The notes under the pieces were generated by a model that saw only the letters and a program-made list of their open reading frames with translations, searched no databases and was not told where the DNA came from. Of a stretch of DNA of 47,522 nt, positions 3,283-38,679 are shown piece by piece. The position numbers and the translations under genes are program-made. The DNA is from Isohypsibius dastychi. Lineage: Eukaryota; Tardigrada; Eutardigrada; Parachela; Isohypsibiidae. The stretch is taken from the NCBI GenBank assembly GCA_034696485.1, contig JAQIWT010000043.1:1-47522 (forward strand), written 5' to 3'. Numbering within the stretch: the first letter of the stretch is position 1; each line of letters begins with the position of its first letter.

Positions 3283-4812
3283 ATGCCAAGGAGTCTTCTC
3301 GTGAAACATCGGGTTGTTCAGCTGCAGGATTCCCCATTTCCGCAACAGCCGACGAGAAAAATTATATCCTGGCCACCACAAAATGCCAATTTCTCGCCTT
3401 CCGACGAAGATCGAACAGCTAGCGATTGTAGTTCGGATTCCGGAAGAGAATCTACTCTTCCAGCTGAACCCCGGGGCAGTTCTTCATTTCCATCCGGTCG
3501 ACCATCGTATCTCAATTTTGAATTCGCCAACGTCTCAAGCTCATCCTCCTCCGACAGTCTCTCATCGAAATCCCCAGTCTCCCCATATCCCCTGGGTCAC
3601 ATTTCATTACTGCCCCGCATTCTGGAGAATCTGGCCGTAACACCTCATAATAAGTACAATCAACGGCTTAACTTTGCCTTACCGTCAGATGGGCTACTAT
3701 CCGAGCAGCTGTTCCGGAAAATCGATGTCCCCAAAGAGCAGGTAATAGCCCGGCCAGCAGCCAGTGGTCAACTGCGTCGAGCCGTCGCAGCTGCAGACTG
3801 TGTAGGCGTTAACCCCCAGTCCAGTCCCGATGACCCTCTGCTATCTCCCCAGTCCAGAAAGAGAACCAACAGTATCGAGAACCCTCCAATTGCGACTCCA
3901 GTAAACAACGGTTCCAAAATTCGCAAACCGAAAATCGCTCGTAAAGAGAAAAAGTCAGATGATTTAACCTCTCCAGTTTCCGGGACATTTATTCGTGAAG
4001 AGTCGGACGTGGATAAAGATGTGATCATTATCCGAAGAGGAGATTTGGATCGCTCACTGCATGTTGTCGAGGACACTGAAGAAGCTCGCGCAGAACTGGC
4101 GAAAATCGAAAATAAAATGTAAGAATTAATTTAACTTTTGATTTTGATTCGGTTCGACTTACTTTCGTATTATCCAGTGGTGCATATGATTGCAAATTGT
4201 GCAAGCTGAACTTTCCGGATGCTTTTGGATTGGCTGGTCATAACTGTTCGCGCATTGTTCACATTGAATATGTTTGTCCAGAATGTGGCAAGTCTTTCCA
4301 CTGTCCGGCCAATTTGGCTTCTCATCGACGATGGCATAAACCAAAATCCGAGCCGGCAACTCCCAAGACATCGCCCAAGAAACTAGCGTCAGAAACCGGA
4401 AGTGAGACAACGGTCGCAGAGTCCTTCGTCGAGAAGGATCGGTCCTCCAATATGCCGTTCAAGAAGCGATTTCTTTTCAAAAATATGATCCAGAACAAGT
4501 CGGTCGTCTCCGAGCGTGAAGATGTGAGCGAAAACATCCCGAAGAAGATCGAAAAGGTATGCCCATGATTCCGAAGGTCAACGAGCTGAAATCAATCTGT
4601 TTTAATTTTAACTGAAGGATCAATCGGATAAGAAAGCTGAAATATCAAAAACCGAAATTCCACTTCCTCCCGATGTCCAGCATTTCTTCTGTCACGTCTG
4701 TCACAGTATCATTCCTGGAGCTCAAGCCTTTGCTAAACATTGGCAAAAATGCCTGCTGACAACCGAGCAAGAAACAAAGTTACCCTCTCTATTCAAAGCT
4801 ACGAGATTCTAA
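3283..4812 (+). CDS. INSM1: INSM/EGL-46/nerfin-family SNAG zinc-finger repressor
   Basis: Exons 3283-4118, 4178-4556 and 4618-4812 join in frame to 469 residues. The protein begins MPRSLLVKH, a SNAG motif, which in Snail, GFI1 and INSM1 must sit at the extreme N-terminus to recruit LSD1/CoREST. This fixes the start, since the in-frame stretch upstream has no ATG. A long Ser/Pro-rich region follows. Finger 1 (C284, C287, H300, C302, a C2HC form) is joined by [10 protein letters not shown] to finger 2 (C312, C315, H328, H332). The [14 protein letters not shown] stretch is diagnostic of INSM1. A last finger (C430, C433, H446, C450) lies near the C-terminus. Three fingers match EGL-46 and nerfin, not the five of vertebrate INSM1. 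By family the protein is a nuclear repressor in neuronal or neuroendocrine precursors. It converges on RalGAP alpha. Confidence 0.92.
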
Positions 4813-5352: not shown

Positions 5353-8300
5353 TTAAACATCCGTCACATTCGGAATCGATCCGAGATGCATGGGGAAGGA
5401 ATACCTTGAGGCAAGTGGAAGTGATTCTGAGGATGCCGCATCTCCAGAACGCGAAACTGCAAGACTTCTCACTCTTTCAGTTGGGCGGACAGCTGGGTCC
5501 TTTGCCGGCCGGAGATGTGCAGAATGGTCCTGAACAACCTGCGTCGCGACGGACTGCTTGGATTGCTGGGGAGAAACGATGTGTGACAGAAACTGCTCGT
5601 AGGTTGTCTCAATGGAATAGTTGAGAATTAGAGACCGGACATAATCAGCTCGTTCTTCGAAGAAATGTTTGAATCCGGTGCGATTCCGCCGACATGCCCT
5701 ACCAGCATTCAGGGCAGTATTCCGTACCAAAACCGCCAGATTTTCCTCTCCAACCACAGCGCCATCGAAAAGTGGTCCAAACGGAGGAATGCTTTCCCGT
5801 TGGAGAATCTGAATCCTGAAGAGCCCTTCAGGTTCATACGGGTAAATGCAGATTATAACATCCCCGAACTGGGTCGGCAGCATTTTTCGATCGTAATCCC
5901 GGTAGTGGTCTGACCATATAATTTGCACTTCATCGTTGCCAATGTGACGCATCTGCAGGCGAGAAGTAAGTCCAAGTCAAGAAGTCCAGTTAGTTAAATT
6001 TCGGGATCAATTCGGCGTACCTTTCTGGTGTGGTCCTCAGTGGAAAGTGCGCCGACCCGGGTAGCAACGTGGAACATCACCTCTTGTGTCGGAGTTGCAA
6101 AATAAAGAGCATTGGTGAACTGCCAGGAGTCCTTGGGTAATCCTCCACGAAAACCAAGATGATTGTTTAGATCAACCTGAAAAGAAAATATTTTAAATCA
6201 ATTCGCTATGATCGATGTTTGATCAGATATGCCGAAATCTCATTCGACGGAAAATCGATGAGGTCACAAACTCACGTTCCATCCCAATCGCGTCAGAAAT
6301 CCCTCGTACTGGCGGCTACCCGTGTTATTTGTCATGATTGACATTTTGTCTTCCTGACCTTTGGCGATGTAGATTACGGCGATTTTTTGCGTATCTCGGC
6401 TAAGGAATTAAATAAACGTTAGACACTTCCAGAAATTCCCGGAAAACAAAAAGTCTCACTTTGGTTGACGATCCAACAGCTTTAAGTCTCTTAACATTTC
6501 AGGGGTGCGATTGATGAGCCAGAGATGTTGCCTGGAACTCAAGTGTAAAACAAATCTGACGACAAAGAAGATGAATCAAAAGCCACCTTTTAGCCGCACC
6601 CATAAAACCGTAATGCGAAAGAAATCGGTAGCAATAGGAATATGAGTTTTCCGGAGGATGCGGCTTGGGACGCTCATAGAATTCCGCGAACATTCTAGAA
6701 AAAGAAACACGTTAAACCTCAGAATGCAGACCGGAATAAAACCAATCTCACTTATTTTGTCTATATTTGTCCTCAACGAATTCGGTCATTTGATCATGCT
6801 GAGTCAACATCATTCGGCTGGTAGCTTCCTCTTGTTCCTTCGATATACCATTCGGAGGCGGACCTGGATTATTCCAAGGATGAGATGCTGACAGACCAAG
6901 GTCAGGCGAAGTGCGATCCACATATCTGAGTATCTGGAACGACATAATCGGTTCAAGAGGGTTACAAAGAAAAACAAGAGCTGATACGTCTAAAACTATA
7001 TCCTCCGAATGCTCTTTGATCAGATCATCAAAAGTCTGCACGGTATCGGGAAGCTCTTCAGACATATCGGGCTGCTTGGGCTTGAGTTTTTCCACTTTTC
7101 TTCCAATGCAGCTTGGAAGTTGTTCAACTAATAAAAGATGGCAGTTTGATCAAAAATTCAAAAGCACCAGACTGACAGCGAACTACCATCTTGATGAAAC
7201 TTTGAGATGACCGATGGCTGACCGAAAAGTGACCGGATATCCAGACTGCATTTGCCGGCAATATCACGAGAAATCACCCTCGTCCTGGGAAACTCGTTTG
7301 GGCTGACTAGTTTAAGTTTCCGGTCTTCAATCTATATCAACAACAGCGAGTTTCCAAGCTGACTGAAAACAGAGGACCAAGACAACACCTCTTTCACGGG
7401 CGTGGAAGAAATCGATATCAAGACGTCATAGATGCAGAAAACCTATGCAAAATCTTTGCTCAATCTGTAGAGCTCTGATGAGGGAAACTAATACCTGGGT
7501 ATCGCGTTCTGAAAAACTTTCGGTGTTCTCGGTTTCATACTCAGAAAAGAGACTAGCCGATGCAGTCCACGCCTTGGGATCTCGGATGTTTTGAAATAAA
7601 TTTGATATCTGTCGAGTAACCTACAAATACTTTTGTGAACATAGAGGTAATCAAACAAAAGAGATCAAAAACCAACGTAACAACCAGCAAGCCGAATGGC
7701 GCGAAAACGGCCTTCTCGGAATAGTGGCTGAACTCTGACATCGATTTTAGCAGTCGGTATCGGTTCTTTTCGCTCCTTGTCCTTGGAATGATCTGTGTTA
7801 GCCCGACCGAAAAAAGCCGTCCCTCTTCGACCCAGGCCTGGTTCCTCTTCGGACTTCATCAAAGCAGCGACATCCATGGAGAGTCGCCGGTCAGGAATAA
7901 AATGCTCAGACAGTCCTCTTTTCTTGCTTCTGGGTTCCATATCTAGCTTCCCGGCCGAGTGATCAAGTTCGAGAAACAAAGCGGTTTCAGATATGGCCAT
8001 CATGGCTTCTAGAACCTAAAAGCACTCGACTGTGTAAAAGGTCACGGAATACTAATAAATCATACTTCAGCAACAGAATGTCGCAAACTGATGGAAGTAT
8101 CATCCGGTGTCGATGGAAATAAAACTTTAGGCACAAGAACCAACCATTCGCATAAGCAAAGAACGATACTGATTGCAGCCTAAAACCGAACAATTCACGG
8201 TTATTTCATGATTGAAAACAGTTAGCTACAAAAATGCAGGGAAAATCGCCAACCTGCTCAATAGCCTTTTCTTCTTCGAAGTTTGCTGGAAGACCGAAAA

Positions 8301-22164: not shown

Positions 22165-24842
22165 TCAAGAGAACTTACTGACAAAATTCCGTTTCCGGGG
22201 CGGATCACGATCTGATCTCGGCGGTCCATGACTATCTCCGTTACTCGGCTCATCCCTCTTGTTCTGGAAAGATCGTGGTTCCTCAAAGCGACGGTCATTT
22301 CCAGGTCCAGGTGGCCGGAATCTGTTTCCACCAGGAGGTCCACCTCGCGGCCGGAAGTTCCGGTCATCTGAATCAGACCGACGGAAGTCATCTCTTGGGC
22401 GATTATCACGCCAATTATCATTTCGATCACGATAAAAACCATCGCTGGGCTTCGGTTCTTGGCGGTTATGATCCCAGTTACCATCCCCACGACGCTCCTG
22501 GAAATTCGGTCGTTGGTGATCTGGAAATCTTTGGCGATTGTCATTGAAGTGAGGCGGTCTCTGATCCGGAAACCCAGGTCCTCTCGGTGGAAACTGTCCA
22601 GGATGTGGCGGTCGCTGCATGAACGCATTATTCGGCGTCATGAATCTATTAACACCAGGACCGGGATTCATCATATGACCCGGAAGTCGACTTGCCAATC
22701 CCATAACTGTCGCAATGTCACTGGATGATGGTAGCAGCGGTGGAGGAAAATTCGGTGGCAAATTGAAACGCGGATGAAAATTATTGTTTTGTCCACTGGC
22801 CAATGGAATTCCAATCAAGTTTCCATTGACATGTTTCTGGATGCTACTGAGCAAACTGGCCAAAGGATCGGGTGATTCTGGAAGTTTGCCACCTCCAATT
22901 ACCGGATCTGCCCAAGAAGTAGGACCGCTCATCAACGACTTGAGATCGAGTGGTAAGCGGTGCCCATTATTCGGGAACTGAGCTGGGCCTGGTGGCCTTT
23001 GACTTTGAAAGAACGGTGGAGGGACACTTGGATCAAAAATGGCAGGTCCACCAAGCGGCGGGGCTCCGATGCTTTTGGCTAACGGATCCGCCCCACCTGT
23101 AAATATTATTTGAAACCGTTATCAGTCCAAACGTATTGATGTGACACACTTTGCCAAGTAGTCCCAGTTGGATTGAAATTGAGATTCGGTGCACCTTGCC
23201 ATGCTGAAGTATTCCCAAGAGGTACAATTGGTAAAGGTGCTACTTCCGCAACAGGAGGATCTTGGGGTTTCTCCGATTTGGAAAACGTGGCTTTCATGAA
23301 CTGAGGAACTGAGCTTTCATCTAATTCCATTCCTTCTTGGAGATCTTTAACGTTGGTTGGTACAAGATTAAACGGGATACGACAAACGCCGGCATCACCG
23401 TCCCATTCCCATTTCTTGTACCCATCCTTGATACCTTTTCCTGGAAAAAGAGGCAAACTGATGCTAGAAAAACGGTGCATGATAAAAAAACAAGTTACCT
23501 GGACTCCAAGAAGCCTTAACCTTGTCGCCGAAAATATCCCACAAATCGTGCAGGGAATGAGTCGAGATAGCGGACTCAGCATGGCGTCGTTTTTCAAACG
23601 AAACATCTTTGAAAATGAATAAAATATTATAATCTGTGATTAATCATAAAATTAAAACTTACAAGCGCAGCCACGGGATGGAATAATATCCACAGATCTG
23701 ACCGTTCCATGTCGAGAAAATTCTTTTTTCAATTCGGACTCCGTGACATTTTTCGGCAGATGCCCGATCCATATTGTGCAACTTTTCAGAACAATATTGG
23801 TGCTGACGGGCTTGACAGGAATCGACTCGGGTAGCGATTGAACAGACATGGGCGAACCATCAGACACGACGGGCTCATCGGTCACGATATCAGCTGAATG
23901 TTGAGAAGCTCCACGACTCTGCCGTAAACCCATCATGATCTTGTCCACAGCAAATTCTGGCTTCCCGTCTTTCCCCATAGTGAAAAAGTCCTCCTCCTCT
24001 TCGTCCTGTTTCGTTTTGTTACGCTTAGTGCCTCTTTCCGACTGACCACCGTCTTCTTCGTCGCTGTAGTCGAAATCCAGGAGCCGTTTATCGAAACGAG
24101 GAACCCCGGTCTTTTGATTTTCGTCTGGACTTCCTTTGAATGAATGTTCCTGACTTGGTTCACGCCTAGCTGGCGAGCATGGCAATTTGCTATCGTCGTT
24201 GTCATCTGTTTGGCTTTCTTCAACGGCTGAGTCTTTAAACGATTCCACGGCATCAATCTGACTTATTATAGGATCAATAATTTCCGTCGGGAAGAATCCA
24301 GCCTCCTTCCATAATTTGAAACAACGAAATACTTTGGACTTGTCTTCGTCAGCACATTTGGCTGCATTGGTAAATGTTGCCCCCAAGTTTTTAGCAAAAC
24401 GAGTTGTGAAGATATCTGAAGAAATGATAAATGATACTGGGGCGTTATAAAATTCGAAGCTCATGACAAACCTCGATCTTTTCCACCACTTTTACGAGAA
24501 AGTCGTAAGATTGCATCCACAACATAGATTCCTACAGAAAAATTCGTATTAAAACGAAACAAGGCACAAAGATACAAAATACCATACCAGGAAGTTTGTG
24601 CTTTGGTGAGCTGAAAACAATATATTTTCGAATTGCAATGAGTGAGGAAGCGATAGTCGTTTCACCAACCTTTTGCGAATGAAAGTTTCAATGTGCATCA
24701 CAACATGCTTGTAAAATTTCTGCGCTTTGATGGCGGAGTCGGTGATTCCTTGAATTTTCGAGCGCGAAACTGGAGTCTTGCTCTCGTACAGAGCTTTGAA
24801 CGTTAGCTCGAAAGCATACAAGTTTGGATCACTAGCAGCCAT
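22165..24842 (-). CDS. SCAF8: SCAF4/SCAF8-type CTD-interacting RNA-binding protein
   Basis: Exons 24670-24842, 24588-24610, 24472-24531, 23663-24415, 23499-23606, 23150-23440 and 22165-23096 give 779 residues. Residues about 5-130 form a CTD-interacting domain (SKIQGITDSAIKAQKFYKHV, KLPGIYVVDAILRLSRKSGG, FAKNLGATF, DEDKSKVFRCFKLW), which binds phosphorylated RNA polymerase II tail. An acidic/Ser linker leads to an RRM at about 295-365 (TIWIGHLPKN; RGCAYVSFEKRRHAESA). The tail is Pro/Gly-rich and ends in an Arg/Asp/Ser-rich segment. Human SCAF4 and SCAF8 are longer and prevent premature polyadenylation, and a nuclear termination-control role is likely here. The exon 6/7 junction (CAA A|gtgtgt to acag|GT) is the least certain. 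The stop follows AGTAAG, which also resembles a donor, so an extra 3' exon cannot be excluded. Confidence 0.92.
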
Positions 24843-25620
24843 ATCCGGAGACAGCCGCGTCCGATTTACAGATGAATATTCCACCGGTCAAGACCTGATA
24901 ATCCTTGTGACCTGTGAATCCAGAACCGCAATTCCGACAAATTACAGAAAATCGGCAACACAATATATCCGGGCTAGCGGTTCCCTCTACAAAAGATGAA
25001 GATACTAAGAGGGAGATCAGTTTGAATGATGGATCACTTCTTACCATCAGGTGAAACTCTGCATGACATGTGTTCGCGAACAAATTAAGGCAGCAGGAAC
25101 GACCAGATCGCCAACCAGAAAAAAACGGTTTCCTCCCAACGTTGATGTTCGGTATCAAAACGAGTTCCGCACGATTCCGGAGACCAAAACCCATAACCGC
25201 ACCACAGACGGCGGTGAACGCGAAATAAACTTCACACACGGAAGTCGAAGCTACCTTCGTCAACTCGGAAATCAAAGTGGAGATCAAAATGACGAAAAAC
25301 TATTTTCTAGCCGTCATATTTGATGCACAGGCGACAGGACCTCTGTCAGTTTAAGTAGCAGGCATGAGGCCCCTGCCCTGGATAACCCGGGGGGTTTTCA
25401 GTAGCGCCACCTGGACCACAACATTCAAGTCCAAACATAACAAATGGAATACTGCTTTTGTGCTATCTTGTATTTATTGAAATTCGTGGATGAAAATCAC
25501 GGCGGTTCTTCGTGATGGTGATGGCACCAGATATCATTATCAATCAACGAAAGGGGTGTGGATAGAACGGAATTCGTAGTGGACAGAAAGTGGATTATTT
25601 ATGGGAATAACATACTTTGC
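24843..25620. promoter_or_regulatory. Divergent region SCAF / B4GAT1, with probable spliced SCAF leader
   Basis: On the minus strand a strong donor (CCTGATG|GTAAGAAG, exon ending at 25050) pairs with an acceptor (CTTTTGTAG, exon from about 24994 down) across a 50-60-base intron, the usual size here. The downstream exon runs into the SCAF start, so this is probably SCAF 5' UTR. A minus frame across 24832-25287 reads through this intron, contains a hydrophobic stretch (about 25200-25240) and matches no family I know. Both promoters should lie within this region. Confidence 0.4.
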
Positions 25621-27052
25621 ATGGCGCGTTTCAAAACGCGGTTTTTTTGGTTCCTGTTGCTTATTTTCATGGGAACTTTAATCTGGATTTGGTCCCAAAT
25701 TGTTGGTTTCACGATCGATCATGCCTCCATGGATGCAGGAAATTTAGCGCCGTCGAAAACGGCGGAAACTTTTTCGTTTGATTTGGACGCGTCGTCGAAT
25801 TATCGTATACTTCGAAATTTCGTAGTCTCGGATGTTTACTCCAGTTCAGAGCCATCAACAAATTATTCCGTGACACTCGTTTTACATTGCAGCCTGCGAA
25901 ATCTGTATCGACTTCCAGATTTGGCGGCGAGATGGGCCGCTCCAATATCGTTAGCTGTTTTTATTCCCACCGGACCCCTCGAACGTATTTCAAGGCTTCT
26001 CGCAGTTTTCCGGAAATGTCATACATCAGTGCAGCGATATGTCTCTTTGCATTTAGTTATGCTGAATGAAGATTCTAAAACTGTTGATCTCTTCGCCGAC
26101 CGAAACTTTGAGCCAGTGAGTTTTCATTTCCGCCAGTGATCTTCGTTGTGTCTGCCAAATCCGGCCCAGTCTAAACTGTTTTTGTCAGCTAGGTTTGCGA
26201 CTCGCTTGTGGATCTAAAAGATTTCACCAAACAAAAGAATAATTATGAGGGTCTTCCTTATCCCAACAATCTTCTTCGCAATATTGGCCGGAAGTATTCA
26301 CGAACCGATTACACTTTCGTATTGGATATTGATTTCCTACCCAGCTCCAATCTAGCTGCAAATTTTCAACGGCTGCTTTCCAGTCATCGAACTGGACTGG
26401 ATGTGAAAGAAGTCTTTATTGTACCGGCTTTTGAGATTCAAAGTTCGATCGAAAAGATTCCGGCTGGTAAACGTGAGCTGCTGCATTATTTGCACAAGCT
26501 GGCGGTGAGACCTTTCTACTTTGAGGTTAGTCCGCGTGCTCGATTTGGTATTTCGTGTATAATGTAGAGTTTTAAATAATTTATTGCGTTAATTTGCAGA
26601 GTTGTTGGAAGTGCCAGAAATTTACCGACTATGAAAAATGGCAGAATTTACCACTTGAAAATGAGTCTGTATTGGGGGTTGCCTACAAAGTATTATGGCA
26701 AGATCCGTGGGAACCATTCTACCTTTCCAGCAACAAAGCTCCATTTTTTGACGAACGTTTCAAGCAGTATGGATTCAATCGAATCAGTCAAGTAAGTGGC
26801 AAACACTTGAGAAATACAAATAATTTCTGGAGGATGATTTTCTCATAGGTGTGTGAACTTCACGTTGCAGGCTACAGCTTCTCAGTCTTGAATAATGCAT
26901 TCGTCATACACAAAGGATTCAAAACATCGAAGGATTTTCACCCAAACAAAGCCGTGGAGCAGGAAGATAACCGAAAGTTATTCAGGCTTTTCAAAACGGA
27001 GTTGTCCGCACGATATAACGATTCTTCACGACAATGTTGGTACGTCATTTAA
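25621..27052 (+). CDS. B4GAT1: Beta-1,4-glucuronyltransferase 1
   Basis: Four exons in phase 0 (25621-26115, 26193-26525, 26600-26791, 26849-27052) give 407 residues; human B4GAT1 has 415. The start is the first ATG in frame. Residues about 7-27 form a single signal-anchor helix, as expected for a type II Golgi enzyme. The donor-sugar/metal DxD motif is D210-I-D212 in [10 protein letters not shown], preceded by YPNNLLRN. The C-terminal half is closely family-like: [47 protein letters not shown] and VIHKGFK. The family enzyme transfers glucuronic acid to a xylose primer on alpha-dystroglycan, priming LARGE-made matriglycan. LARGE carries a related domain, but the length and the absence of a second glycosyltransferase domain favour B4GAT1. 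The gene converges on the globin gene. Confidence 0.95.
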
Positions 27053-27386: not shown

Positions 27387-29778
27387 TCATGACCGGAAAC
27401 CCTTCTGCATGGTCTGTGTCGTCCAGCTTATCCATTGCCTGTATATCCTGTCCATATTATCCGTATAAGCATCTCCGAGGGTAGTTTGTAGCGCAAATAT
27501 TAAACATTTCTCCATGCGGACGAAATATTCTTCTCTGAATCCGGGGAATTTCTTGTGTTTTTTTCCAACGGTTTCCAAATTGGCAATCAAATTATCGACA
27601 AGATCCGTTTCTTGAATCGCTTGATCGTATGTAGATATATGGGTCATAGCTACTTCTTCGAACTGAAATAAGATTAAATTGTGAGTTAGATTATCGAAAT
27701 TCATAGTTCAGAAGAATATGGCGTTTCTTACATCTTCGTCACTGCGCAGTTGATCCGGTGTTTTGTCTTTGAATTTAGGGAAAAATTGTTTCATTTCTTC
27801 ATCCTCGAAGAGTCTGTGGAAATGTTATCATTCAAGTCAATGCACTGTAAAGTTCCAGAAATGTGACTTACTTTATCAGAAAATCTTTCCCCGTCGACTG
27901 TTGAACAATGAATTGTTATATTTCTCGACATTTTACGTGAAGTATGAGAGACCGCTTACCTCCAAATTTCGTCCGACATTTTTCCAGCTTTTCACAAGGG
28001 AAAATTTATCTCTGTAAACAGAAAATGTGGATTATGATATCTCGTCAGCGATTGAGTTATCCTTCGTTTTGAACATCCCTTTACATTTGAAATAAGTGTG
28101 TCGAGCCGTGCTTTGTGGGTCGTCTCGCATGCCTTATTTATTTGATTGGGATTCATGCGGTAATTGACTTGCGATGTCGGGATTGAATAAAATACTCTCC
28201 CTGATTTTCACATGCAGAAATGGAACAGTTTCTGGAGGAACGAAATTAATATTTTGCTTTTTGTTGTGGACAGTGATCTATTTGAGGGGGAAGGGGTGTG
28301 GATCCATTCATTCCTTCAGTAAATATCTTAGTGCGGAAATGGCATGGGAAGGCTTTGCGGAAGACATATCTGTAAAGGCTGAGAATAAGGAAGATTTATT
28401 GATACTAGAGTCTCTGCCATCTATCCTTCGTGGTTGCCGGAATATCCCTGCATGCACGCGAATTGCGGCATCATAAACCGACGTCAGTCATAGAACGGCA
28501 AAAATAATATCGCTCTCCATGATTATTCATTGTTCGAACACTAGCTGTTATTTATAAACAACTGCATTTTGTAACTGTCTCGGATACCTTGAGATTTTCA
28601 AACTATTTAGCTCAGAAATCATATGCTTAATATATGCAATTTATTATTGTTTGCCGGTGCTACAATTTATATTTTCTATGTATAGAAGTACGCTCATGGT
28701 TATTTGCGTTCGTGGTTGGATTGGGTTTACAGAGGGTGCATTTACCCAGCGTGTATCGACGCTCTTTTGTCAGGAAGTTAATTTGGGAGCCCTGAATAGT
28801 TGGATCATGTTAGTAATAGAATGAAGAAACCATTTGGTGAGAAATGTTGAGAGAGCGGCAAGTGCCACAACTGGGACGAGTCGGTAATTAAATTAGAAGT
28901 TTGAAAAATTGCGGTCTAGCTAATAAGAGGAGATTGCATCATGTCAGATTGCTGTCGCGAACAGAAATCTTTGTGGCAACTTATGACTAATTACGATTCA
29001 ATAAAAGAGCATGATCCAGCTTTCTGCGATCCTGAAACGATCATCCTGATTTAGGCATTTCGTGATCTTCGATATTTCGTGCTAGCCAAATTATGTGTTT
29101 TTATTCCACTCCTCTTCGGTTCAGATACTAATTTTATTGTTGATTTTTCTAGATCACTTGGCACTTGGACTGAAGGCGGAAACGCGGGAGGGCAACTGAG
29201 ACGGAAATCGACTGGCTATTTTGAGTCCAACAATAGATGAATGACATAATCCTACGTCACGAATACCGGGCTGCTGAGAACATTTTCTTGGATCCATCTT
29301 ATGTCGAATTTAATGTTTTTAGCAAGAGTCCCCAGAACTGTGGCATTTACGGCAGCGCAGTTGGTTTATGGTAAAAGAGTGTGTTAATCGCACTTCACCC
29401 CATTTTGCCCTTAATATTGCTCCCAGCGGAAGGGTAAAAGGTGCTTCCCTTTCATGCTGCTTTCAGCAAAAGAGTCAACATGGCTATTTATGTTGATTTT
29501 GACTTTGGCTAGTAGTTTTCAAGATGGCAAACAATCCGTTCGTGAGAAAACGCTTGATTTTTTCGAAGTTTATCATTGTCACTCTTTAATGGCAGAAGAA
29601 CTGCCATTTTAGTGTAGTTAATTTAACGACAGTTCACGTGAACGCACCTGGCTGTGAGCGGAAAACGTGGATCAATAGCAGGGACGGCTGGTTGTGGCAG
29701 CGAATTTGCAGCTCCTGCTGCACTTTTCGAGTCGTTCTTCCCCTTGGATTTGTCAGACTTTGACGGTTTGGAACCCAT
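27387..29778 (-). CDS. N-terminally acylated, globin X-like globin
   Basis: Exons 29648-29778, 27960-28011, 27872-27897, 27732-27813 and 27387-27662 give 188 residues. Exon 1 encodes MGSKPSK (Gly2 and Ser6 fit the N-myristoylation rule), a Lys/Ser/Ala-rich arm and DPRFPLTAR. Its phase 2 donor fits only the acceptor before 28011, giving LTARDKFSLVKSWKNVG, the usual globin A helix. The intron after residue 70 is phase 2 and falls at the ancient B12.2 globin position; the G7.0 intron is absent. F81 is the CD1 Phe and H133 the proximal F8 His. Counting back 32 residues from H133, as in neuroglobin and globin X with no gap, puts V101 at E7 and H105 at E11. It is probably a haem protein on a membrane face. 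Whether it binds oxygen, signals or handles redox is unknown. Confidence 0.9.
28012..29647 (-). other. First intron of the globin gene (1.6 kb)
   Basis: Most introns here are under 120 bases, so this is exceptionally long. A frame at 28174-28476 on the opposite strand is unsupported. There is also a false first-exon candidate at 28085-28130, which would need a weaker acceptor. I see no nested gene. Confidence 0.75.
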
Positions 29779-31002: not shown

Positions 31003-33104
31003 ATGCCTGCAAAGCGTGAACGGAGGAATAACAGTAAAGCCTCGAAGAAGGCCAGCAGTCCATCAAGATCCAAGTCACCGAAAAAGAAACCCGTCAGCAA
31101 GCCTGTCTCTAAGAAGAAATCGGTGGATTCTAAACGGAAAACGAAAGAGAAAAAGGAAAAGAAGCCGAAACAGGTTTCAAAAAGCCCCATCGAGGATGAT
31201 GATGATGCTGTTGTTGTTCCTGAAGTGGAGGCAGAGTCTGTTTCACTTTCACCAAACCGAATTTCGAAGGTTTGTGGGGTGTTTTTTTATTTCGCGCTCT
31301 TTTATCGAATGCCTTTTTAGGAATCTTTGAACAATTTAGAAGAGATCTATGGACTTCGTGGACCTAAATACTTGCACAAAGCACTGACCACTTGCCAGGA
31401 TCCTCAGGAAATGTTGCAGCACTTTCGAACAGAAGAAGGGATTCTGGTTCCCACTCTTCGTCCAGCTGTGGCAATGCTTGATTTGATGGAAGTTACGCGG
31501 CAAGAATTCCACATTCGCTGCGCGGAGCAGCTTCGTCAGGAGTTGATTGATCGTATTAATTCGATTGCTCATGGACCAAAAACTGAAAATCGCCAGTCCC
31601 GTCTTCAAGAGCTCCTTGATAAATGTTATACGGGATTGAATCTGCCTTTGGTTCGCCCGGTTGTATTACAGGTTCTGAAAAGTCTCAGCTCGGTGGACGA
31701 GAAATACAAGAAGCAGATCATGGAGAACAAGGAATTATACGACGTTTGCGAAATTCCATTGAAACGGCAGATTTGGATTGATCGGAATGATTTATTCGAA
31801 ACTGAGATGACTCCTCTTATAAATTCGTGGATCGCAAACCGGAATCGGAGTCTGTTCGAAATCAGCCCAGCAAATAGCCTTTACACGATCCAAGGAAATG
31901 TTCGACGACAAGATGCTTCTCTTCTGAAAATTATCGAAAGCGTCGGGGAGAATGCGATTTTGTACGAATTATTCAAGAAATTCGTGAAGAAGCGATTTCT
32001 GGAGAATACAAGTCCCCATTACGGAACATTGCGGCTGGATTTTCTCATCCTAATGCATGAGCGCCATCCGGAACTTGTGACCTCAACGGACAACCAATCG
32101 TACAAGTTCGCGTTTTTGATGGACGCTTCCGTGCGAGCTCGACATGTGGATTCCAAGCGCAGTAAAGAAATCACAGCAGTCCTTGATAGTCTGAAGAAAA
32201 AAGATGGCTCCACCTTTCAAGACGTCGCGATGATTGTGAGTGACCCCCAAATTACTTATTTCAATGCAACCAGTGCGATGCGACTCGTTCAAGCTGTTGT
32301 GAATCAGGATGGATTGCCGAGAGATAATCCCATGTTGCTCTTCTTTCTCCGACTATTGAGCTTTAGTGTCCATGCTTTGGAGTATGTTGGTGAGAAAGTA
32401 CTGAAGGAAGCCAAATTTCCCTCGAAAATTCTCTGTGATTTTATTCCGGATCTGTGTGCCTTGATGGTCTCCATTTCCGCCAGAAGTCACAACCACGAAA
32501 AGCCGAAGTTGGCAAGTGCCCGTCTGGAATGGCTGACGACGCCCTTGAAGCAAGACCCCATTGCGGTATGGCTGATCACCCAGTGGATCGCTTATTTGTT
32601 GCGGCAGAATGATCAGGAAGTCATCGTCGAACTCATCCGGATGTTACCTCAATTTCATAACGAGATGTTGACTAAAGAAGACCATCTGGTTCATAATATG
32701 GTCATTCAGTTGGCCCATACTCCACAGGAGCAACGCTGGACGGTCAAATTTGCGGATTGCATTTTTCGGGAATATCTTCATGCTGAAAAGCCGAGCGTAC
32801 CGGAAGCCAAGCATTGCCTTCGGTTGATGTACTACGTTTACGCCAAACTGGAACCGCTGTATCGAGATGAGATTTTGTCTTCCTTAGCTAAGGTATCATA
32901 AAATCAATAATGCAGTTCGACTTATTAGTTGTTATTTAATTTTCCGATTTTCAGGTTGAAGATCCGGAAGTACGAATAATGTTCACCACCGTTCGGTCCC
33001 GAATCGCTACATCCGTTCCAGTGAACCCTTTGTTACAGAAGGACGGTGCTACACCCATGTCGCCAACTAGCAGTTTCGCTTCGTCATACCGACCTTTTAT
33101 GTGA
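31003..33104 (+). CDS. NELFB: Negative elongation factor subunit B (NELF-B/COBRA1)
   Basis: Exons 31003-31269, 31321-32892 and 32955-33104, all phase 0, give 662 residues (human about 580). ATG 31003 is the first in frame. Residues 1-75 are a highly basic Lys/Ser/Arg extension (KKPVSKPVSKKKSV) absent from human NELF-B and likely nuclear-localising. The body is NELF-B-like throughout: ALTTCQDPQEMLQHFRTEEG (human LTNCTEPLKAIEQFQTENG), EIPLKRQIWIDRNDLF, SPHYGTLRLDFLILMHERHP, DASVRARHVDSKRSKEI and VVNQDGLPRDNPMLLFFLRL. It is an alpha-helical scaffold of the NELF complex that holds RNA polymerase II at promoter-proximal pause sites. C. elegans lacks NELF, so its presence helps to limit the source organism. 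AATAAA at 33271 is a likely poly(A) signal. Confidence 0.94.
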
Positions 33105-34019: not shown

Positions 34020-36462
34020 TTACAGACTAGTTTCCATGCTGACAATCCTTTGTTGTGATGATGATGTTGTCGAATCAGCTTGATGACTTCCACCCGAGGA
34101 ATCCAGTTTAGCGAGTGCTTGCTCGTATTCCAACAGCTGGCCCATAAAGTTGAAATTGGGTGATATCACAGACCTTTTATCTTTCACGAGTTTATAAGCA
34201 TCATTTAGGGTCATACTGCAATGATGCATCAAATAAGCCACAACGATGGTTGCCGACCGGGAAACTCCTGCTTGACAGTGAATCAAAACATTGCAGTCGG
34301 ATTGGCGAGCTTCCTCTGAAACAAAACCGCCATGAAGAAATCTGAATTAAATTCGAGAAATTCATAAACTCACCTATAAACTGGAACGCTTCGTTAAAAT
34401 ACTGGATCAAATTCTGCTGTCCGCTATCCGAAGCCGGCAATCGTTTGTACTTCATTCCGTCTTTTTCGTAATAACAAGGAGTGTGAGAAGTCACGTTGAG
34501 AATGTAGGAAACTCTGAGGTCTCCAAGACGTTTCATATCGGATGCATCACGTTCATTTCCCAAATAGAGAAATGGTAGCACCTGTGACGCTTCGACTTTT
34601 TCCAAATCCACGTCACTGGGGGTCCTCGTCGGACTGACTAACGGACCGGAAGGAATAATGTTTGTACTTTTGACTGCAGTGCCATCGCAGGATGCCGGAT
34701 ATTGACTTTGAAAATCGGAAAATCCACCTAGAAAACGAAAGTGGCGTGAGTAATTTCCCATACATGGTAATACTCCACTCGAAATACAGATCACATCCAA
34801 TTTTAGTACAACTTGAATACCAATAAGTCAAAAATATGACGAACCATAATTTCTGCACATCTTGACTCCCAGAAAAAAAGACCGACTTTTTGAAACTACT
34901 AAAGTTGACATGGAAAACAGAACAGTCTCGTGGTTACAAAACGAGGCAACTGATTTAACGACACACCGAGTCAAGCGTTCAAGTCACGGAAATATTCGCG
35001 GTTTGAGGGGCGGAACTTGGACTAGAATTAGCAGACGATATATGGGGTTGAAGGTTGGAGCACGCTTTTTACTACACGACAACTGTTTATTTACGTTGTG
35101 TACAAAATTAGCAATTCGATGAGTCAGTCAAACTACCAATGAATTCGGTAACGATAAAACGCGGTACGAATTCCAACATGACTGATCGTCATCGTGTCAC
35201 GAAAATATGAATATCGGTAATCAGTCGATGCTATCGGAAATAGCGCTAACTAAAGGCAGACAGTGCAAAACTCAAAATGTGTGATTTCATGACCAAATAA
35301 TAAGATATTGAGTGGCTTAGTTGCAAAAAATGGTTCCTGTCAATTTCATTTTTAATCAACAGAAAAAGTAACGAAATACTGTAGATATGTTGGTGCTATC
35401 TGCGTCAAGCAATTCAGTATCTAAGATCGATTGAATCATGAAGGAAACATCGAAAAATCACGCCGATTTATGGAACGATAACAAAGTAATGATATCTTCC
35501 GCCGGCTGCACTTTCCTAAATGGGAAAGATAATTCGATAACCGATTCAAACTCGCCAGGCCTACTAGACTCAAAGTGGGCTAAAAAGAGAATGATGCATG
35601 GAAATAGCCTGCATATCCATGTAAATAAATATGGCAAAAATGACACAGTGTATATTGGTTCGGTCAGCACTCTTAGATGACTCATGCTGGAGTTGCGAAA
35701 CGGAAACAGTTTGCGCCAGATTCTAATCGATCATTACTCCAAAGAAAACACCGCAACTTTCGACTTACCTATTAGCACAGCTGGATCTTTCCCATCTTTT
35801 CTTAAAGATGAAAGTAACATCTGCAACGGATGCTGAGGTGGCAAACCGGTCCAGTCGACGGTGTGTTCGTCATACACCACAACTTCCTTCAAAGCACGTT
35901 TTCGATACAGCACTTTCGCTTCCTTGCTTTTCAGCATATCATAAACCGAGGCTTTTCCAGATAACAAAATCCGGCGCACAGAACGATTGCTGAGATTCAG
36001 ATTATAAGCGCCATAGATGCAACTCATTCGATGCATAAATTCGGGTCGACAATCCAACAAAATAAACGGTTTTGGCCGGCGCATTCTGCGATCCAACTCT
36101 TCAGGCAAGATATCTTTCAGACTCCCATGTGGCCGAGTGCTGGAAGAACCCGCCGCGGAATATTCAGAGAAATTCAAAGACGCAATGGAATCGCCGGTCG
36201 GAGTTCCGGTCGGTGTGCGGTTTTTCAGGGTTAATTTTTGCAGAATGTCCAAATGAGTTGATGGGCTGATTGGAGTATTTGCAGTCGACAAGCTCAGCGG
36301 GAACATGCGACTGGGTCCAGGAAATGGACATGCTCCAGCAGAAACAGGTGTTGTTGATGCAGACTGCGACCATGACGGCTCCTGCAAAGTCAGCCTCAAT
36401 TCCTTCAGCTTTTTACGTTGATTCATCTCGATGTGGCCCGAGTGGGAATTTGCCAAGCGCAT
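34020..36462 (-). CDS. DUSP10: DUSP10/MKP-5-like MAP kinase phosphatase
   Basis: Exons 35769-36462, 34374-34727 and 34020-34315 give 447 residues. An N-terminal rhodanese/MAP-kinase-binding domain (about 130-260: [61 protein letters not shown]) carries basic RR and KR pairs. The dual-specificity phosphatase domain follows: [26 protein letters not shown] (general-acid Asp) and [11 protein letters not shown] with catalytic Cys363, then [37 protein letters not shown] and the C-terminal ME(T) motif point to DUSP10 more than the ERK-type MKPs, so JNK and p38 are the likely substrates. The start is provisional: this exon begins at 36475 after a clear acceptor. Splicing from a weak donor near 36525 would add an in-frame ATG (36529) or more residues. 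Confidence 0.92.
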
Positions 36463-38679
36463 ACTCCAGTTCCCTCTGCAATTAGAATAAATGTCAGAAT
36501 CAGGTGAATTCAAGGGATGAACACCCCATCGTCAGAAGACAGTCCATAGAATAAATCAATGTTTCAAGAATTTGTTTCGTTTCCGCTGCGTGCAAAAACG
36601 TCTGAGAGTGACTGTTGATGCCGATGTCAGCATAAACGCTCTTGAACTGGTCAAGGCATTCTAACAAACTGCCGATTAGTCGCCTATCCACATGGGGGCA
36701 TTACCGGTTTATACTTCTTGATTGAATGTCAATTGTGCTCCATTCTTCTGTCCCACTTCCGGTCATGATAATCGGCATGAAATCTCCTTGCGTGAAGTAA
36801 GTAAACAAGATCAATCTCCGCAAGATGTCGAAATTACAAGTACTATTTTTAACCAACGGCAAGCAAGCCAAGCGTTGAATCGGTTGATGATTCAAGCAAC
36901 TCGTTGACTCGCACGTGAGGAATTACAACTTTGTCGCGAGAATTTAGCAAGACTCGCAGTACAAAATGTTGCCGCTGGTGGTTAGAAAAAATCCCATTTG
37001 TCAGTCACAACACACTTTTGGACATCCACGTCAACCAAATCTGTTATGCGCCTCGAAAAAGAAGATGCCTATAGGCAGCCAATCTCCATTGCAAGAAATC
37101 AATTTCCAGATAGGAACCACCAGGGCTTATCAACTATATTAGTTCACAGTGGTGAGTTATGCAGTTAACCTGCAGTTCACAAGATGACTAATACCATGTC
37201 TTGCTACATCAAGGCATTTATTTGTACTCACCATGAACTACAAAATGCTGTGATCAACACGGATATCACTGCTGCGTCAGGTTAGAAAGTTGTTTCCTCT
37301 TTCCAGCATCACTGAGTAAGCGCTGCTGACGAAATAAACAGATGTAGATCATGCGGAAGATCCTATATAGGAAATATTCTGCGTCAATCATGAAACTCTG
37401 CGGAGAATCTTTTTCCAGATTCTACGGGATTAAGGTCTAAAATGAGAATCAAATTTTGATTTCAATACGCATATCGAATGCAATCCACGGCAAATGCAGT
37501 TTACGTCAAAGGAGCGGGGTGGTCGGCTTCTGGGCGTAGTCTTAGCACATTGAATCAACCCCAGGCGGGATCCCGCGTATCCGGCACAGCGCAGGCTGGA
37601 TGAAAAGTAGGACGCTCTGGAATAACTGCAGCCTTCACAAGCACTGGGTTGACGTCGGACCGGTGACTCATCCGCTGGATATAAAGGATTCGATCATTCC
37701 GTTTTTCGATTCCATCCGTTTTAGGAACGCTGGGACCGTCCCTGTAAAAGCAAAACCATGCCGCATGTAGAACAGAGCTGCTTGAGCACGATAATAAGAA
37801 ACCAAATTCATCCAAAAGCCGAAGCTTTTTAGCTGCTTGAAGCTGGTGACCTTTGCACGTTGAGACCGGAAACATTTTTTAAATTAAACCTGATGCTCAC
37901 GGGTATTCCACGCTACAAATTACAGAGCGTTCAAAAAAATGATGATTTCTCCCGGTGCAGTTTGATCTTATATTTCAGCAGGCTTACCGAATTATAGTAC
38001 CCGAACAGAACTAGTAGAGTGCGGATACAGTATAGGGAATAAAATTGTGCGGGATCACCTCCGGTTTTCTAACAAATACTAGTAAGGTTCACTGACTAAT
38101 GGCGGGATGTGGTTTGCTCAATTTCTGCCTTTTCCGGGTGGAAAAGCAATCTGTCAGAGAAAACAGCGCCATCTTCGGAATGGCAGAAGTTGTGCCGCAC
38201 AACATCCGCGAAAATCAGCGGCCTTTTCGTGAACAAAAACTCGTCACTACACTTGACGATTTTGCCCCCATCTGTGTCTGCGTGTGATCAGTCCTGCATC
38301 TGCGGCCTTGATGAGCGGTGCTAACGAACCAACCTGCTTTCGGTGTTATTGATTGAAGTCTCGGTTTGGCGAGCTAGCTGCAAAGCAAAACAGCAGAGCA
38401 CTCACCAAAGGCAAGCGACTGATCCAAAAGCTCAGACAGCAGCGCATTTTTATCTCAAACATGCGCTTGCAGGCGGACCAAATCCATATATATAGTGGGC
38501 TGGTCCTCGTTAGTTGGCAAGATACAGAAGGTCCATCAACAACACGGTTCAGGTGTATTACCATTATAGGACCGGCACATGCGGATTTATGCTGTAAAAC
38601 GGATTTGCAGACGAGAGAATTTAGAAATTAGAAACAACTTAACTCGAATTCGAGTCGCATGAACGAACGAACACTGACC

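Follow-up and report, generated by a model that had tools for sequence, protein, structure and literature searches.

A kumaglobin orthologue in the tardigrade Isohypsibius dastychi with histidine at E11 and a putative N-myristoylation site

The globin gene and its neighbours

The gene described here lies in a 47,522-nucleotide stretch of the Isohypsibius dastychi genome (contig JAQIWT010000043.1), the whole of which is referred to as the window. Ten neighbouring open frames in the window were scanned; eight have a Pfam match to common animal domains (one of them below the cut-off), and two have no Pfam match. The plus strand carries exons of a Glyco_transf_49 gene of the dystroglycan glycosyltransferase type (25522–26567), which is convergent with the globin gene, a COBRA1 homologue in one long open frame (31321–32898; Pfam 4.7e-66), COBRA1 being another name for NELF-B, and a C2H2 zinc finger (4116–4565; 25.8 bits against a Pfam cut-off of 25.2). 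Pfam matches on the minus strand include a Rap/ran-GAP domain (5356–5976; 2.5e-23), CID and RRM domains within a single frame (23655–24491), the arrangement of SCAF4/SCAF8-type proteins, and two separate frames with a DSPc phosphatase match just below the cut-off (34204–34827) and a Rhodanese-like match (35737–36531). The last two frames are possibly parts of one phosphatase gene.

The globin gene occupies the minus strand from 29778 to 27387, where five joined exons (567 nt including the stop codon) encode a protein of 188 amino acids and all four introns follow the GT...AG rule. Exon 1 (29648..29778) supplies the start codon, residues 1–43, and two bases of codon 44; it is drawn from its frame, its GT donor, and a start and junction that recur in an orthologue from Paramacrobiotus metropolitanus (P0001). 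The globin core begins in exon 2 (27960..28011; residues 44–61), placed by alignment to the sequence of PDB entry 5ziq, and continues in exon 3 (27872..27897; residues 62–70, with codon 70 split in phase 2), placed by alignment to orthologues. Exon 4 (27732..27813; residues 70–97), based on frame and alignment, includes Phe81 at CD1. Around residues 73–75, this exon encodes one residue fewer than P0001, the 5ziq sequence, and the Hypsibius protein. Exon 5 (27387..27662), based on the alignments and on Pfam family PF00042, runs from the E helix to the C-terminus and stop codon and contains Val101 (E7), His105 (E11), and His133 (F8). The complete protein matches the Pfam Globin family (PF00042) at 1.6e-13 (51.6 bits; cut-off 22) and has the phenylalanine at CD1 (F81) and the histidine at F8 (H133) expected of the globin fold.

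The membership of exon 1 in this gene, proposed from the sequence alone in the first-pass annotation, is borne out by protein evidence. P0001, which begins MGSKPSKSASKSKDKKDSK, has the same MGSKPSKS start and is continuous across the junction of exons 1 and 2 (DPRFPLSARDKFSL vs. DPRFPLTARDKFSL), passing it in step with the window protein and thereby supporting the gene model, which is established by protein homology; the same match makes a wrong first exon unlikely. Exon 1 encodes an N-terminal extension that opens with MGSKPSKS, includes a putative N-myristoylation site at Gly2, and leads into a lysine-rich stretch. The rule for N-myristoylation calls for Gly2, a small residue at position 6, and allowed residues at positions 3 and 7. 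By inspection, MGSKPSK fits this rule, as had been proposed for the first exon. The eight residues MGSKPSKS are identical in the window protein and P0001; this conservation covers two species, and the records from Ramazzottius varieornatus and Hypsibius exemplaris do not contain a native N-terminus.

Orthologues and other globins of the genome

In a phmmer search of PDB sequences, the top match is a globin from R. varieornatus (5ziq/5zm9) at 4e-70 and 238.5 bits, and the next PDB sequence reaches 43.1 bits. A four-sequence profile matches the same entries at 9.9e-100, although the profile itself includes that sequence. Both entries, deposited at pH 7 and pH 4, are titled “hexacoordinated heme protein from anhydrobiotic tardigrade,” and the agreement of titles and species identifies them as kumaglobin, the R. 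varieornatus protein that, judging by title, was reportedly described by Kim, Fukuda and Inoue (FEBS J, 2019). Among solved globins, kumaglobin is thus by a wide margin the closest to the window protein.

Structure comparison used an AlphaFold2 model of P0001, calculated without haem and of modest confidence (mean pLDDT 60.4, pTM 0.48). The Foldseek search with this model places 5zm9 (6.9e-11) and 5ziq (8.7e-11) at the top, ahead of the first other entry at 7.2e-4, and the 5ziq sequence (P0002) was itself one row of the model's input alignment. In the best 50 rows of each structure search, the non-tardigrade entries are ordinary globins. The VIA-align Z scores for kumaglobin (13.7) and cytoglobin (12.9) are not clearly separated.

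The protein search returned three named relatives, from P. metropolitanus (P0001), R. varieornatus, and H. exemplaris. Searching with an alignment as the query gave eight hits, five of them beyond those three, and a looser limit returned the same eight proteins. The alignment of eight sequences consists of the window protein and seven of these hits; P0008, whose frame ends before the E helix, was omitted. The N-terminal residues of P0007 match no orthologue. Histidine occupies both E11 and F8 in all eight aligned sequences and E7 in none, and the window protein shares this kumaglobin-group pattern (H105 and H133, with V101 at E7). The E7 residues are V, L, A, M, M, T, M, and V, where two of the methionines (P0004 and P0006) are the first residues of fragments and may be start codons read as Met. 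Its five residue types put E7 in joint third place for variability, together with two others, among the 64 columns in which all eight sequences are represented. Since 26 of these 64 columns are invariant, an invariant E11 histidine is by itself unsurprising at such divergence. P0001 has only two histidines, at E11 and F8, and the crystallised part of 5ziq, its tag apart, has three (near the C helix, at E11, and at F8).

By sequence, the window gene is orthologous to kumaglobin, whose PDB entries describe it as a hexacoordinated haem protein. The arrangement with histidine at E11 is therefore real and not peculiar to this gene, being common to the tardigrade globin with a solved structure, and the orthologues rule out a lone oddity or an annotation artefact. 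Annelid globins have been described as the closest relatives of kumaglobin (PMC12403961, in part); no such annelid globin is among the hits of the three protein searches.

A globin-family search of the genome assembly (30.4 Mb, 1648 contigs) gave nine matches on six contigs, the window gene (L003) among them; the five further contigs carry L001, L002, L004/L006, L005/L007, and L008/L009. Apart from the window gene, four loci have an E helix that can be read (L001, L002, L004, and L005), and by eye all four have HisE7 together with Val or Ile at E11. L006–L009, whose matched stretches do not contain the E helix, fall outside this count. An E11 histidine as a habit of all globins in this genome is ruled out by these four loci. 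The matches on contigs C1281 and C588 resemble one another by eye. The reverse strand of L002 has, starting at base 611 of the reversed locus and upstream of the globin exon, an open frame that begins MGVKYTK, and this start also fits the myristoylation rule.

Haem ligation and membrane attachment

The best reading of these data, with a probability of about 0.85, is an orthologue of kumaglobin that is a bis-histidyl E11/F8 redox globin with a likely myristoylated N-terminus and an association with membranes. The haem would be bound through His133 (F8), and His105 (E11) would close the sixth site, leaving E7 free to vary (Val, Leu, Ala, Met, or Thr). The window protein has no histidine besides H105 and H133, and P0001 likewise has exactly two, at E11 and F8, so neither protein offers another route to bis-histidyl ligation. 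In kumaglobin, we infer E11 His to be the sixth ligand from the titles, the sequence, and the histidine count. The first-pass annotation suggested that the distal ligand might come from E11 in a hexacoordinate haem; this part of its proposal is favoured indirectly, through an orthologue that was deposited as hexacoordinated and has its histidines at E11 and F8. A closed E11/F8 haem without a free site is expected to transfer electrons rather than carry O2, and reversible O2 transport is unlikely because there is an internal ligand and no polar residue at E7. By analogy with GLB-6 and GLB-26 of nematodes, the haem most likely cycles between Fe(II) and Fe(III) with outer-sphere electron transfer, as in bis-histidyl nematode globins. 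The most likely fate of Gly2 is N-myristoylation, whereupon the acyl chain and the lysines would hold the globin at a membrane.

Two alternative readings concern the pocket itself. The only histidine ahead of F8 is H105, where an E7 histidine would be expected, so that a slip of one helical turn would make H105 the true E7 and the protein an ordinary distal-His globin; the helix register leaves this the slimmest of chances. E7 and F8 are 32 residues apart, and E11 and F8 are 28 apart. In the phmmer alignments to PDB sequences, lamprey haemoglobin V and fish cytoglobin align without gaps from E7 to F8, with gaps further upstream, and V101 falls opposite the target histidine at E7, while H105 falls opposite Ile or Val. 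The four-sequence profile gives the same register, and a four-residue slide is absent from the five alignments shown for each search and is rejected on that evidence. A102, next to E7, is invariant in all eight sequences and lies opposite Ala in both targets, and the four other readable globin loci of this genome show H-[GA]-x-x-[VI] at the matching place by eye. F81 (CD1), V101 (E7), H105 (E11), and H133 (F8) accordingly stand as first assigned. If the register is kept, H105 might merely line the pocket of a pentacoordinate or water-ligated haem, giving a gas-binding globin in which E7 is apolar, and some animal globins are indeed described with Leu or Ala at E7 (PMC7457136, in part). This is nonetheless quite improbable, as the orthologue was deposited as hexacoordinated at both pH 7 and pH 4 and the E11 histidine is invariant in the eight sequences.

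The membrane anchor admits a further alternative, which leaves the core unchanged but makes the N-terminal stretch a disordered cytosolic tail with no lipid attached. The anchor is argued from the motif only, and residues 1–41 of the P0001 model have a pLDDT below 50. The window protein has Ser at residue 3 and a sole cysteine, C150, which makes palmitate at Cys3 impossible; of the Globin X motif (Gly2 with a palmitoylatable Cys3), it has Gly2 only. A palmitoylatable Cys3 is described as typical of other metazoan globin X, but it is a weak criterion for Globin X because most arthropod members, too, are described as having no palmitoylation site (PMC7457136, in part). The identity of MGSKPSKS in two species, against several differences in the stretch behind it, argues for an anchor, as do the myristoylation motifs said to be widespread in arthropod globins (PMC7457136, in part). 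Of the acylated C. elegans globins, GLB-12 left the membrane once its acylation sites were deleted (PMC4686822, in part), and GLB-26 is reported to be membrane-attached by myristoylation (PMC3520999, in part). An unanchored tail is thus the less favoured interpretation and rather unlikely, and a myristoylated, membrane-associated window protein remains the preferred one, as predicted from sequence.

The window gene adds a new sequence to the kumaglobin group, in which the E11 histidine is retained while E7 drifts (eight sequences), and it adds no new kind of haem ligation. Residues in 5zm9 are numbered from 37 to 190 and start with the DPRF that the window protein shares, which suggests that the construct omits a native N-terminal stretch of similar length. 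The MGSKPSKS start of two species, outside the crystallised Ramazzottius construct, offers a straightforward way to test whether kumaglobin is anchored at a membrane. As a speculation to which we would give little weight, a globin tethered to membranes, its haem permanently sealed by the E11 histidine and its E7 no longer under selection, may be maintained in tardigrades to serve as a redox relay, or to supply or remove superoxide, at the membrane during drying and rewetting.

Comparison with known globins

The closest known system is kumaglobin (5ziq, 5zm9), which is 69% identical over 81% of the window protein. Both have histidine at E11 and F8 and none at E7, and in both the core starts with DPRFPLTARDKFSLVKSWK. 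They differ at E7 itself (Ala in kumaglobin, Val here) and in the segment before CD1, where the window protein has one residue fewer; the native N-terminal stretch of kumaglobin is outside the crystallised construct. The P. metropolitanus protein P0001, annotated as globin-3-like, is 70% identical and shares both the MGSKPSKS start and the restriction of histidine to E11 and F8, but has Leu at E7.

The first-pass annotation knew of no well-studied example of the E11 swap, a view that does not hold. The kumaglobin orthologue has two crystal structure entries, and the title of the paper by Pesce et al. (2009) on the structure of the Geobacter sulfurreducens globin-coupled sensor (GCS) states HisE11/HisF8 ligation. 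E11 ligation is published both for that protein and for C. elegans GLB-6 (PMC3287990 and PMC3106018, in part). The Geobacter sulfurreducens GCS globin resembles the window protein by description in being bis-histidyl through HisE11 and HisF8 as axial ligands (PMC3287990, in part), although it is a bacterial globin of a sensor family.

C. elegans GLB-12 and GLB-26 are described as bis-histidyl globins that are acylated and bound to membranes, and redox roles have been proposed for both, that of GLB-12 being superoxide signalling (PMC4686822 and PMC3520999, in part). In contrast to the reading preferred here, the sixth ligand of GLB-26 is assumed to be the E7 His (PMC3520999, in part), and GLB-12 also has a predicted palmitoylation site (PMC4686822, in part). 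GLB-6 is described as strongly hexacoordinated and rapidly oxidised by O2, with the distal residue displaced to E11 and N-myristoylation predicted; it differs from the window protein in being described as without a D helix (PMC3106018, in part). The combination of an E11 distal residue with predicted myristoylation, as put forward for the window protein in the first-pass annotation, therefore already has a described animal example in GLB-6.
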